Shown here: positions 41,117-56,760 of the stretch, piece after piece | Numbering within the stretch: the stretch's first letter is position 1 | How the letters are laid out: every line of letters starts with the position of its first letter | Origin: Afipia sp. | Lineage (GTDB): Bacteria > Pseudomonadota > Alphaproteobacteria > Rhizobiales > Xanthobacteraceae | NCBI GenBank assembly: GCA_024508675.1 | Contig: JANINQ010000021.1 | Coordinates: forward strand, 744,001-808,000 | Direction of reading: 5' to 3' | Length of the DNA: 64,000 nucleotides | Made by a program: the position numbers and the translations under genes | The notes under the pieces: generated by a model | Databases searched by the model: none | What the model saw: the letters and a program-made list of their open reading frames with translations, nothing else | What the model was told of the DNA's origin: nothing

Positions 41117-41674
41117 TTACATCTTCTCCGGTCCGCGCGAGATGGCGGCGACGCCAGTGCGCGACACTTCAACCAGACCGAGCGGAACCATCAGGTTGAC
41201 GAACTGATCGATCTTGGCGGTGCCGCCGGTGATTTCGAACACAAAGCTCTCGGTGGTGGCGTCGATCACACGCGCGCGGAACGCTTCCGACAGGCGAAGC
41301 GCCTCCATGCGAAGATCGCCGGTGCCCTTCACCTTGACCATCGCCAGTTCACGCTCGATGGCGCGGCCGGTCAGCGTCATGTCCACCACGCGATAGACCG
41401 GGATCATGCGATCGAGCTGATGCTTGATCTGCTGGATCACCATTGGCGTGCCGGTCGTCACGATGGTGATGAGCGACATGTGCTTGGCGTGTTCGGTTTC
41501 CGACACCGTGAGACTGTCGATATTGTAGCCGCGGCCGGAGAACAGGCCGATCACGCGCGCAAGCACACCCGGCTCGTTCTGCACAAGCACCGAGAGGGTG
41601 TGCGTCTCGTTCGGATCGTGACGCTCCTCCATGAAGTAGGCGGATGCGGGCTGTTCCATTGTTTCTGCTTTCAT
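41117..41674 (-). CDS. ilvN: Acetolactate synthase small (regulatory) subunit
   Basis: HTLSVLVQNEPGVLARVIGLFSGRGYNIDSLTVSETEHAKHMSLITIVTTG ACT domain; start at MKAETMEQP. Confidence 0.95.
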   Translation of the reverse strand: MKAETMEQPASAYFMEERHDPNETHTLSVLVQNEPGVLARVIGLFSGRGYNIDSLTVSETEHAKHMSLITIVTTGTPMVIQQIKHQLDRMIPVYRVVDMTLTGRAIERELAMVKVKGTGDLRMEALRLSEAFRARVIDATTESFVFEITGGTAKIDQFVNLMVPLGLVEVSRTGVAAISRGPEKM

Positions 41675-41690
41675 GATCACACCAGCGCCT

Positions 41691-43469
41691 TTAAACCAGA
41701 GCCTTGCCGCCGGCGAATGCCGCAGCGGTTGCTTCTTCATTTGCTTCCGCAGGAAGCAGCATTTCGTTATGGGCCTTGCCCGACGGGATCATCGGGAAGC
41801 AGTTTTCCAGCGCCGCGACGCGGCAATCGAACAGGACCGGCCGTTTGATCTTGATCATCTCGTTGATCGCGCCGTCGAGATCGCGCGGCTTCGTCACCTG
41901 AAGCCCGACGCAGCCAAAGGCATCGGCGAGCTTGACGAAATCCGGCAAAGCCTCCGAGTACGAATGCGACAGCCGGTTTCCGTGCAGCAACTGCTGCCAC
42001 TGGCGCACCATGCCCATGTATTGATTGTTCAGGATGAAGATCTTGATCGGCAATTCGTACTGAACCGCGCTCGACATTTCCTGCATGGTCATCTGCACCG
42101 AGGCATCACCCGCGATGTCAATCACCAGCGCATCCGGATGCGCCACCTGCACGCCCAGCGCCGCCGGCAGGCCGTAGCCCATGGTGCCGAGACCACCGGA
42201 CGTCATCCAGTGATGGGGCTGCTCGAAGCCGAAGAACTGTGCCGCCCACATCTGATGCTGACCCACTTCGGTCGTGATGTAGGTGTCCTTGCCCCTGGTC
42301 AGTTCAAACAGCCGCTGGATCGCGTATTGCGGCATGATGACGTCGTCATTCTTCTTGTAGGCTAGCGAATTGCGCGAACGCCAGCGGCCGATCTCGAACC
42401 ACCATGGATCGATCTTCGGCGCCTTCGCCTCGGCCTTGAACACCGTCAGCAGGTCGGCAAGCACATTCGCGACGTCGCCGATGATCGGAACATCGACGCG
42501 GATGTTCTTGTTGATCGACGACGGGTCGATGTCGATGTGGATTTTCTTGGAGTTCGGCGAGAACGCATCGGTACGGCCGGTGATGCGGTCATCGAACCGC
42601 GCACCGATGCACAGCATCACGTCGCAGTCGTGCATCGCCATGTTAGCTTCGTAGGTGCCGTGCATGCCCAGCATGCCCAGCCAGTTCTTGCCCGAAGCGG
42701 GATAGGCGCCGAGGCCCATCAGCGTCGAGGTGATCGGAAAGCCGGTGACCTCGACCAGTTCGCGCAGCAGCTTCGAAGCTTCCGGGCCGGAATTGATCAC
42801 GCCGCCGCCGCTGTAGATCACCGGACGGCGGGCCGAAGCGAGCAGCGCCACAGCCTTGCGGATCTGCACGGCATCGCCCTTCACGCGCGGATTATAGGAA
42901 ATGTGCACGTCGGACTTGCGCGGCGGATGATAAGTGCCGGTGGCGAACTGCACATCCTTCGGCACGTCCACCACCACCGGACCCGGACGGCCCGTGGTCG
43001 CAACGTAGAACGCTTCGTGCAGCACCTTCGCCAGATCATTGACGTCACGCACCAGCCAGTTGTGCTTGGTGCAGGGCCGTGTGATGCCGACGGTGTCGCA
43101 TTCCTGGAACGCGTCATTGCCGATCAGATGCGTCGGCACCTGCCCGGTGATGCAGACCAGCGGGATCGAATCCATCAGTGCGTCGGTCAGCGGCGTGACC
43201 ATGTTGGTCGCGCCGGGACCAGAGGTCACCAGCGCAACACCTGGCAGGCCGGTGGAGCGCGCGTAGCCTTCCGCGGCGTGACCCGCGCCCTGCTCGTGCC
43301 GCACCAGAATGTGCTCGACATCGCTCTGCTGAAAAATCTCGTCGTAGATCGGAAGCACCGCACCGCCCGGATAACCGAAGATGTGCTTGACCCCGTGGTC
43401 CTTGAGCGCGCGCACGATCATCGCCGCGCCGGTCATCTGGTTGGGGTCGTGTGGCTTGCTGTCACTCAT
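41691..43469 (-). CDS. ilvB: Acetolactate synthase large (catalytic) subunit
   Basis: MTGAAMIVRALKDHGVKHIFGYPGGAVLPIYDEIFQQSDVEHILVRHEQGAGHAAEGYARSTG; IDIAGDASVQMTMQEMSSA. Confidence 0.97.
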   Translation of the reverse strand: MSDSKPHDPNQMTGAAMIVRALKDHGVKHIFGYPGGAVLPIYDEIFQQSDVEHILVRHEQGAGHAAEGYARSTGLPGVALVTSGPGATNMVTPLTDALMDSIPLVCITGQVPTHLIGNDAFQECDTVGITRPCTKHNWLVRDVNDLAKVLHEAFYVATTGRPGPVVVDVPKDVQFATGTYHPPRKSDVHISYNPRVKGDAVQIRKAVALLASARRPVIYSGGGVINSGPEASKLLRELVEVTGFPITSTLMGLGAYPASGKNWLGMLGMHGTYEANMAMHDCDVMLCIGARFDDRITGRTDAFSPNSKKIHIDIDPSSINKNIRVDVPIIGDVANVLADLLTVFKAEAKAPKIDPWWFEIGRWRSRNSLAYKKNDDVIMPQYAIQRLFELTRGKDTYITTEVGQHQMWAAQFFGFEQPHHWMTSGGLGTMGYGLPAALGVQVAHPDALVIDIAGDASVQMTMQEMSSAVQYELPIKIFILNNQYMGMVRQWQQLLHGNRLSHSYSEALPDFVKLADAFGCVGLQVTKPRDLDGAINEMIKIKRPVLFDCRVAALENCFPMIPSGKAHNEMLLPAEANEEATAAAFAGGKALV

Positions 43470-43549: not shown

Positions 43550-43573
43550 AAAAAAGGGTCCCGAAAGGACCCT
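43550..43573 (-). terminator. Attenuator terminator in the ilvB leader
   Basis: Minus strand AGGGTCC-TTTCG-GGACCC-TTTTTT, 6-7 bp GC stem followed by U6, upstream of ilvB. Confidence 0.9.
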
Positions 43574-43592
43574 GTGCACACCGCTTTGTCGT

Positions 43593-43611
43593 GGGTAGCC
43601 GTCAGCTACCC
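43593..43611 (-). promoter_or_regulatory. Leader pause-type hairpin overlapping the leader-peptide stop codon
   Basis: GGGTAGC-CGTCA-GCTACCC perfect 7-bp stem, nested inside 10-bp arms GCACACCGCT (43576-43585) / AGCGGTGTGC (43614-43623). Confidence 0.75.
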
Positions 43612-43667
43612 CCAGCGGTGTGCCGGGTTACGACGATAATAAGAAGGTCGGTAACTTTATTGCGCAT
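43602..43667 (-). CDS. ilv leader peptide MRNKVTDLLIIVVTRHTAGGS*
   Basis: 21-codon ORF with consecutive CTT CTT ATT ATC GTC GTA (Leu-Leu-Ile-Ile-Val-Val), followed by alternative stems and a U-tailed terminator before ilvB. Confidence 0.92.
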   Translation of the reverse strand: MRNKVTDLLIIVVTRHTAGGS

Positions 43668-43854
43668 CTTACGCCGTCATTTTCCAAAGGTTGCGCGGGG
43701 TTATACGGCCCGGTCGGGGAAAGTCAAGCCCGTGCTCAGGCCGGAGCTTAGCGGTTTCCGGGCATTTGGCGAGAGCGAAAACTGGCATCGGAACCGATTA
43801 CTGTGCCAGCCTCGTGCCTCTGCCAGGTTCCAATGAAGACAACGGGAGAACTCC

Positions 43855-46210: not shown

Positions 46211-47728
46211 TCAGTTCACCGCCAGCGCGACGAAGCGCAGCTCGCCGGAACCGTTCGACACCAGAAGCAGCACGGACTTCTTGCCGTCCTTCTTCAACTG
46301 ATCGATCCGCTTCTTCACGTCGGCGGCGTTGGTGACGGATTCCTGCGCGACCTCCACGATCACATCGCCTGCGCTGAGGCGTTTCTCGGCGGCATCCGAA
46401 CCGCTGTCGACGCCAGTGACGATGACACCCTTCACATTGTCCTTGATCTTGAAGCGGGTCCGCAGGTCCTTGGTCAGACCGGCAAGATCGAGGCCGAGCG
46501 CCTTCTGCGTGACCGGCTTTTCGGATTCCACCGGGCTGGTGGTCTTGGCTGACGCTTCGACTGGCTTCTCACCGTCATCGAGGCGGCCGAGGGTAACCTT
46601 GCGGGTTTCTTCCTTGCCCTTACGGATGATGACCACATCCACAGCCTTGCCGACCGGAGAGTCGGCTACGGCACGCGGAAGGTCCTTCATTTCCTTGATG
46701 TCCTTGCCATCGAACTTGATGACGACATCACCCGGCTCGATGCCGGCAGGCTTGGCAGGGCCCTTGTCATCGACACCAGCAATCAGCGCACCGCGTGCGG
46801 GCTTGATGCTGAGGCTGTCGGCGATTTCATCCGTCACCTGCTGGATGCGGACGCCGAGCCAGCCGCGGCGAACTTCCTTGAACTGGCGAAGCTGATCGAC
46901 CACCGCAACAACGGTCTTCGACGGCACAGCGAAGCCGATGCCGATCGAGCCGCCCGACGGCGAGATGATCGCAGTGTTCACACCGACGACCTCGCCATCG
47001 AGATTGAACAGCGGTCCGCCCGAATTGCCGCGATTGATCGCAGCGTCGGTCTGGATGTAGTTGTCGTACGGCCCCGAATTGATGTCGCGGTTACGCGCCG
47101 AGACGATACCCGCGGTCACCGTGCCGCCGAGGCTGAACGGGTTGCCGATCGCGATCACCCATTCGCCGAGACGCAGGGTGTCGGAGTTGCCGAACTTCAC
47201 TGCCGTGAGCTTCTTCTCCGGCGGCTTGAACTTCAGCACCGCGAGATCGCTCTTCTTGTCCTTGCCGATCAGTTCGGCCCTGATCTTGGTGCCGTCATTG
47301 AGAATGACGTTGATCTCGTCCGCGTCGGCAATGACGTGATTGTTGGTCACCACGGTGCCGTCGGTATCGATGATGAAGCCCGACCCGAGCGAGTTCACCT
47401 TGCGCGGCGAGTTGTTGCCGCCGCCGGGACCGCCGCGCCGGTTCTTGAAGAACTCGTCGAAGAATTCGCTGAACGGCGAATCCGGCGGAAGCTGCGGATT
47501 GGCGCCGCGCCGGTTGCCGCGCTCGTCACTGCCCTTGTCGCCGTCGTTATTCTTGGCTTCCACCGTCTGCGAGGTGGAAATGTTGACGACGGCATCGATC
47601 ACCTTCTCTGCAACGTCGGCAATGCCGTCCGGCCCGCGGGCCAGTGCCGGTGTCGCTGCGAGGGCGAAACCGACGGCCGCGGCAAGCGGCAATACGCGAC
47701 GGCTCAATGCTTGAAACGCATCGGACAT
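46211..47728 (-). CDS. Do/DegP-family periplasmic serine protease with PDZ domains
   Basis: SGFIIDTDGTVVTNNHVIADADEI; IQTDAAINRGNSGGPLFNLDGEVVGVNTAI; two PDZ domains. Confidence 0.94.
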   Translation of the reverse strand: MSDAFQALSRRVLPLAAAVGFALAATPALARGPDGIADVAEKVIDAVVNISTSQTVEAKNNDGDKGSDERGNRRGANPQLPPDSPFSEFFDEFFKNRRGGPGGGNNSPRKVNSLGSGFIIDTDGTVVTNNHVIADADEINVILNDGTKIRAELIGKDKKSDLAVLKFKPPEKKLTAVKFGNSDTLRLGEWVIAIGNPFSLGGTVTAGIVSARNRDINSGPYDNYIQTDAAINRGNSGGPLFNLDGEVVGVNTAIISPSGGSIGIGFAVPSKTVVAVVDQLRQFKEVRRGWLGVRIQQVTDEIADSLSIKPARGALIAGVDDKGPAKPAGIEPGDVVIKFDGKDIKEMKDLPRAVADSPVGKAVDVVIIRKGKEETRKVTLGRLDDGEKPVEASAKTTSPVESEKPVTQKALGLDLAGLTKDLRTRFKIKDNVKGVIVTGVDSGSDAAEKRLSAGDVIVEVAQESVTNAADVKKRIDQLKKDGKKSVLLLVSNGSGELRFVALAVN

Positions 47729-56248: not shown

Positions 56249-56409
56249 GGCCCGATGTAGAATGCCCGTAGGCGCGGGCCAATCGCTATTCCGGTGCGGC
56301 GCGCATGCATGGAACGCAAACCGGAACATTGCGAGGGCTGCGCTCCTGCCGCCCAAAGACGGAAACCGGGGGGCTTTTGCGCGGGCGATTTGCCCCCTAT
56401 ATTGAGCGT

Positions 56410-56760
56410 GCCGGTTCGCCGGCTATGGAAATAAATGGCCGTCGTAATAAACCATTCGGACCCGGGGGCAGCACCCGGCGCCTCCACCAAAACCCGGACT
56501 CTCCGCCACCAATCGGCGGGTTTCGGCGGGGGCGAAACAGGATCGACGAGGGCGTAAAGGACTCGCTTTTTCTCGGTATTGTTCCGCCGTTATCGGGCTA
56601 TTCAATAGTTGCAAACGACAACTATGCTCCGGTTGCTCAGGCTGCGTAACGCAGTTTGAAATACCGACTTAAAGTCCTGATGGATTAAGCCCCGTCAGGC
56701 GGGGTCCGGAGGCACCTGGCAACAGAAGCCTCCACTTTAACCTCACCGGATCACACTGGA
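56410..56760 (+). ncRNA. ssrA: Circularly permuted (two-piece) tmRNA; outer boundaries approximate
   Basis: Acceptor 3' strand CGCCTCC-A-CCA (56479-56489) precedes 5' strand GGGGGCG (56528-56534). These form a 7-bp acceptor stem with G3.U70. Tag ORF GCAAACGACAACTATGCTCCGGTTGCTCAGGCTGCGTAA (56611-56649) encodes ANDNYAPVAQAA*. Confidence 0.95.

Follow-up and report, generated by a model that had tools for sequence, protein, structure and literature searches.

The stretch of DNA analysed here, referred to as the window, comprises 64,000 nucleotides of an Afipia sp. genome, and holds on its minus strand the genes for both subunits of acetolactate synthase, the enzyme of the first step shared by the branched-chain amino acid pathways. 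The large-subunit gene ilvB (or ilvI), the putative regulated gene, is followed by the small-subunit gene ilvN (or ilvH), the true start of which probably lies inside the open reading frame (ORF) listed in Table 1. A preliminary description of this sequence had proposed an attenuator with a leader peptide upstream of ilvB. Its account of the leader matches the minus strand base for base, and the placement is borne out by the matches of the genes behind the leader to NF006581, TIGR00118 and TIGR00119. Elsewhere in the window, positions 56371-56736 of the plus strand hold a permuted tmRNA gene of the alphaproteobacterial type (RF01849, 300.6 bits).

Table 1. Features of the ilvB leader and of the operon behind it, in window coordinates
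Feature	Position	Strand	Evidence
-35 element TTGACT of putative leader promoter	43722..43727	-	sequence
-10 element TATAAC, 16 nt past the -35 element	43700..43705	-	sequence, aligned in relatives
Conserved 5' motif GCGCAACCTTTGGAAA, at and just past the expected transcription start	43681..43696	-	nearly invariant in Bradyrhizobiaceae leaders
Leader peptide ORF MRNKVTDLLIIVVTRHTAGGS, ATG to TGA, 21 codons	43602..43667	-	sequence; counterpart in 139/139 ilvB loci
Control codons CTT CTT ATT ATC GTC GTA (Leu-Leu-Ile-Ile-Val-Val), codons 8-13	43629..43646	-	sequence
ACCC segment, candidate weak antiterminator, between control codons and outer arm	43625..43628	-	pairs with GGGT of terminator 5' arm
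Outer helix 5' arm GCACACCGCT, 10 bp	43614..43623	-	98.8% of cells paired over 43 leaders
Inner hairpin 5' arm GGGTAGC, 7 bp	43605..43611	-	98.0% of cells paired
Inner hairpin 3' arm GCTACCC; 5-nt loop contains leader stop TGA	43593..43599	-	pairing as for 5' arm
Outer helix 3' arm AGCGGTGTGC	43576..43585	-	pairing as for outer 5' arm
Intrinsic terminator AGGGTCCTTTCGGGACCCT and U6 tail	43550..43573	-	terminator scan; fold; retained in 139/139 loci
ilvB/ilvI, acetolactate synthase large subunit, putative regulated gene	41691..43469	-	NCBIfam NF006581 1192 bits; TIGR00118 above cut-off; Pfam TPP_enzyme N, M, C
ilvN/ilvH, acetolactate synthase small subunit, next gene	41117..41740	-	TIGR00119 168.8 bits; Pfam ALS_ss_C

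The 21-codon ORF with its consecutive LLIIVV codons is present exactly as first described, its ATG beginning at 43667 and its TGA occupying 43604-43602 of the minus strand. No Val codon is rarer in the window than GTA (4.5%), which closes the run of control codons. Across relatives the leader reading frame is preserved, with the Leu/Ile/Val run retained in differing codons and the peptide variable outside it. A three-codon ORF (ATG ACG GCG TAA; 43669-43680, minus strand) stops one base before the leader ATG. It is common to the window and its nearest relative, has an altered stop codon in locus L083, and is probably incidental.

The remaining elements of the preliminary description, namely a 7-bp hairpin whose loop contains the stop codon, outer arms of 10 bp enclosing this hairpin and a U6-tailed terminator, were all recovered. 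The terminator (AGGGTCC-TTTCG-GGACCCT, with T6 finishing at 43550) is the sole site detected by a terminator scan of 600 bases, and ilvB starts 80 nt past its U tail. The leader folds at -50.6 kcal/mol, against -35.0 +/- 3.8 kcal/mol for shuffled sequences (z -4.2), a value reached by none of 200 shuffles. Over 43 Bradyrhizobiaceae leaders, 98.5% of cells pair when both helices are taken jointly. Double changes affect 7 of the 17 pairs, comprising three of the ten in the outer helix and four of the seven in the inner hairpin, and none of 500 shuffles matched this degree of covariation. When the partner was slid by 1-3 columns as a control for covariation, helix pairing was destroyed. Judged from these alignments, the leader helices appear to be under selection. 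The Rhizobium-type leaders likewise hold the stop codon within a loop.

The conservation of the element was assessed by scanning the ilvB protein against 84,980 species genomes, which yielded 80 named loci, with relatives added by genome searches. The closest named ilvB is from an Afipia sp. MAG (94%). In total 139 ilvB loci could be oriented, the window's own included; a few of these are identical sequence from two collections, and the distinct leaders number 130. In all 139, ilvB is directly preceded by a leader ORF that contains a Leu/Ile/Val run and, behind this ORF, a terminator. Of these loci, 138 were recognised by script and one by eye (L017, where the run reads LLTAVV and falls under the script's threshold). 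The loci span Bradyrhizobium, Rhodopseudomonas, Nitrobacter, Afipia, Mesorhizobium, Rhizobium, Sinorhizobium and more distant families of the order. Hence the conservation of the run and terminator in relatives, which the preliminary description had put forward as a check, is found throughout this set. A covariance model built from Bradyrhizobiaceae leaders detected exactly one copy each in 91 of the 120 family genomes searched, and all 19 of the matching loci fetched besides the window's own sit before ilvB. In a class-wide search of 240 genomes this model found the window's own genome only, being family-specific and uninformative on absence elsewhere.

The expected frequency of such an arrangement by chance was estimated by searching for a small ORF in which five or more consecutive Leu/Ile/Val codons end no further than 60 nt before a strong terminator. 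This constellation was absent from both strands of 60 first-order Markov windows that matched the real one in dinucleotide content. Besides the leader, the real window contains one match, plainly incidental, within the last part of a protease-like ORF at 46318.

Ahead of the leader ORF lies a putative promoter absent from the preliminary description (TTGACT-16 nt-TATAAC, 43727-43700). A promoter scan overlooked its -10 element, as the scan requires T at the sixth place, where this element has C. Across the Bradyrhizobiaceae, the nearly invariant CGCGCAACCTTTGGRAA comes after the -10 box. This 5' motif (GCGCAACCTTTGGRAA) has no evident Shine-Dalgarno role. The possibility that GCGCAACCTTTGG is a shared regulatory site was rejected, as it has a single exact copy genome-wide, and other matches were no better than those of a reversed control.

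The position of the promoter divides the leaders into two types. Among the Bradyrhizobiaceae, a TTGA[C/A] box begins 59-60 nt ahead of the leader ATG in 53 of 61 leaders, and from this promoter position the leader ORFs of the family, including that of the window, are predicted to have a 5' UTR some 25 nt long. In 46 of 51 leaders of the Rhizobium, Sinorhizobium and Mesorhizobium type, the -35 box begins 37 or 38 nt ahead of the ATG. This spacing would place the transcription start at or beside the ATG, and therefore the ilvB leader ORFs of this type (L038-L081, L111-L118) look to be leaderless. The trp attenuator of S. meliloti, rnTrpL/peTrpL, offers a parallel, as its trpL is known to be leaderless like the Rhizobium-type ilvB leaders, whereas the leader in the window has a predicted 5' UTR.

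The element had been described as unannotated, which holds in the sense that no Rfam family attains its own cut-off on the leader. However, the family RF02502, "Rhizobiales sRNA Atu_C8", does cover it, though below that cut-off and labelled as an sRNA. The match runs from end to end of the leader (positions 1-122; 32.0 bits, E 7.7e-5), and as the curated cut-off of RF02502 is 50 bits, the leader in the window is not a member by Rfam's rule. By its position and its gene, it nevertheless appears to be homologous to the family, sharing with it the locus before ilvB, the nested helices and the terminator. RF02502 has matches in 77 of 150 genomes of the order, usually once each. When 30 of these Atu_C8 loci were fetched (L111-L140), 29 directly preceded ilvB in the same orientation. 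In every one of the 30, the match opens with an ORF that contains a Leu/Ile/Val run, the ORF of L118 being MNTILVVGPRSAGEA. Hence the catalogued sRNA would be, or at least begin as, the terminated product of the attenuator. Although the Rfam label is that of an sRNA, the evidence favours a cis attenuator with a coding ORF, and on the basis of synteny and coding content Atu_C8 is the ilvB attenuator element. No paper among those searched equates the two.

One genome carries an extra leader of the Atu_C8 type (L115:1470-1640; G185:C2:433710-433880), with a Val-Val-Val ORF and a terminator. It precedes a Bcr/CflA-type efflux transporter gene (TIGR00710), not ilvB, and scores 85 bits, above the other copy in the same genome. 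This extra copy at the efflux gene is absent from 12 other genomes of that genus.

The preliminary description had also recognised in these parts the architecture of ribosome-mediated attenuation. The parts that it lists are indeed in place. It names no antiterminator, which the classical mechanism requires, and none was found by folding with the ribosome modelled as a mask ending 6-14 nt beyond the A-site codon. Full-length equilibrium folding of the leader gave a terminator probability of about 0.95 with the ribosome at any codon, and this readout was dropped, as values of at least 0.96 were also obtained for the proven thr, leu, trp and his leaders of E. coli. Two other readouts were employed. 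One, obtained by nascent-strand folding, was the extent to which the terminator 5' arm pairs with upstream sequence while the 3' arm is yet to be made; it recovers the switch for the trp, leu and thr leaders of E. coli. The other was the free-energy cost of forbidding the terminator, taken as the value at the stop codon minus the control-codon mean, with a threshold of 5 kcal/mol. With a 10-nt footprint, this recovers the switch in five of six E. coli leaders (trp, leu, thr, ilvL and ivbL), missing that of his. By this readout, a classical antiterminator was detected in none of the 130 distinct leaders, with no value above 5 kcal/mol at any mask length tested. The model leaves out pseudoknots, proteins and kinetics, and the 130 leaders, coming from one order, are not independent. 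The folding result is a caution, not a refutation of attenuation.

What the nascent strand of the window leader does show, in this model, is a different order of events. As long as the ribosome has not moved beyond Ile10, the terminator 5' arm is half held upstream; the arm is free with the ribosome at Ile11-Val13 and partly held with it at the stop codon, which as modelled is not the order of a classical attenuator. In the Bradyrhizobiaceae, the early hold is due to the ACCC-GGGT pairing, which extends the outer helix and forms only with the ribosome at or before codon 10. Measured against swapped-arm controls, complementarity to the terminator 5' arm is present in the Bradyrhizobiaceae only, around ACCC and the inner 3' arm. 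The inner 3' arm was rejected as a classical antiterminator, as it is not exposed by a ribosome positioned at the control codons.

Attenuators of this type are already known. Attenuation through a leader coding sequence has been attributed to the Caulobacter ilv operon, ilvBN (Tarleton 1994, as cited in PMC4117421), an alphaproteobacterial ilvB leader peptide has been described (Vitreschak 2004, as cited in PMC1273637), and a cis-regulatory element of S. meliloti ilvIH is listed in PMC2573895, from Vitreschak 2004. As represented in these citing papers, the Caulobacter and alphaproteobacterial attenuators share with the window the gene, the place, an Ile/Val-rich leader ORF and a terminator; they belong to other species. 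The ivbL, ilvL, leuL and trpL leaders of E. coli likewise have control codons, a leader ORF and a terminator before biosynthetic genes, but form a strong competing antiterminator with the ribosome at the control codons, of which none was detected here. The S. meliloti rnTrpL/peTrpL is, like the window's element, an alphaproteobacterial leader-peptide attenuator, but senses Trp, and has demonstrated roles in trans (PMC7298713).

The ilvB leader combines a run of end-product codons (LLIIVV), a terminator between the ORF and the gene, and a gene in the same pathway. A leader ORF of Ile/Val/Leu codons directly before ilvB/ilvI is also the pattern that the citing papers associate with Vitreschak 2004. 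These parts and their strict order point to a leader-peptide transcription attenuator, as the preliminary description had proposed. We consider it very probable that the element is a ribosome-mediated transcription attenuator of the ilvB-ilvN operon, and no other reading appears to fit as well with the order and position of the parts, the covariation of the helices, the conservation of the Leu/Ile/Val run and the presence of the terminator before the ilvB target.

From this arrangement, we infer that the leader is transcribed, translated, terminated and responsive to amino acids. Transcription would begin about 25 nt ahead of the leader ORF, and a ribosome would translate the 21-codon peptide. 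With charged Leu-, Ile- and Val-tRNAs plentiful, the ribosome would reach the stop codon in the inner hairpin and the terminator would form, yielding a leader RNA of about 140 nt. With these tRNAs scarce, the ribosome would stall in the LLIIVV run, masking the outer 5' arm and altering the folding downstream, such that the polymerase would continue into ilvB.

Other readings of the locus were weighed against attenuation. Intergenic terminators are common, and the element might be an ordinary one accompanied by a chance intergenic ORF, with no regulation at all. This is scarcely credible given the conservation in 139 of 139 loci, the covariation, the same-strand site between promoter and ilvB, and the absence of the constellation in simulations. 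A more specific suggestion is that read-through is the default in the Bradyrhizobiaceae, with the outer helix, extended by ACCC-GGGT, acting as an antiterminator when the ribosome is absent or delayed at the Leu codons, and a ribosome that moves past the Ile/Val codons opening this helix, so that the terminator can form. This would agree with the nascent terminator 5' arm being held upstream up to codon 10 and freed at Ile11-Val13, with a mean gain in this family of -7.4 kcal/mol early and -0.8 kcal/mol mid-run, and with the advantage of a leader's own arm over arms swapped from other families (-8.0 vs -5.0). However, it is quite unlikely, as the pairing comprises only about four pairs, the complete terminator is still ahead by about 7 kcal/mol in the window, ACCC-type pairing is not seen in the Rhizobium-type leaders, and a valine shortage would go unsensed.

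The element might also be primarily a trans-acting small RNA, with its ORF and its position before ilvB secondary. The family that matches it here is catalogued as an sRNA, and is included in a benchmark whose Rfam sRNA families are described as supported by published transcription evidence (PMC5913331); in addition, the RNA terminated at the S. meliloti trp attenuator acts in trans (PMC7298713). Yet the Atu_C8 loci precede ilvB on the same strand in all but one of those fetched, each with an ORF, and such strict synteny is expected of a cis element, making a primarily trans-acting function very unlikely. An additional role in trans could exist beside cis attenuation. A broader conjecture is that the order's ilvB attenuators switch without a classical 2:3 antiterminator. 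The decision would instead lie with the nested helices around the stop codon, together with the Bradyrhizobiaceae extension of the outer helix into the base of the terminator, such that the progress of the ribosome, rather than its stalling, sets termination; the terminated leader RNA may also act in trans, like the trp leader. This is offered tentatively, as a rather unlikely account.

The contributions of this work to a known type of attenuator are therefore the identity with Atu_C8, the split between leaderless leaders and those with a 5' UTR, and the antiterminator not being found. The last of these makes the textbook mechanism directly testable in a group in which it has hardly been examined. 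The identity with Atu_C8 has a practical consequence, as RF02502 is labelled an sRNA but appears to be a cis attenuator that encodes a peptide, meaning annotation pipelines now assign it the wrong role. Ribosome-mediated attenuation through this leader would account for the probable control of a central biosynthetic operon throughout a large bacterial group with soil-dwelling and symbiotic members.
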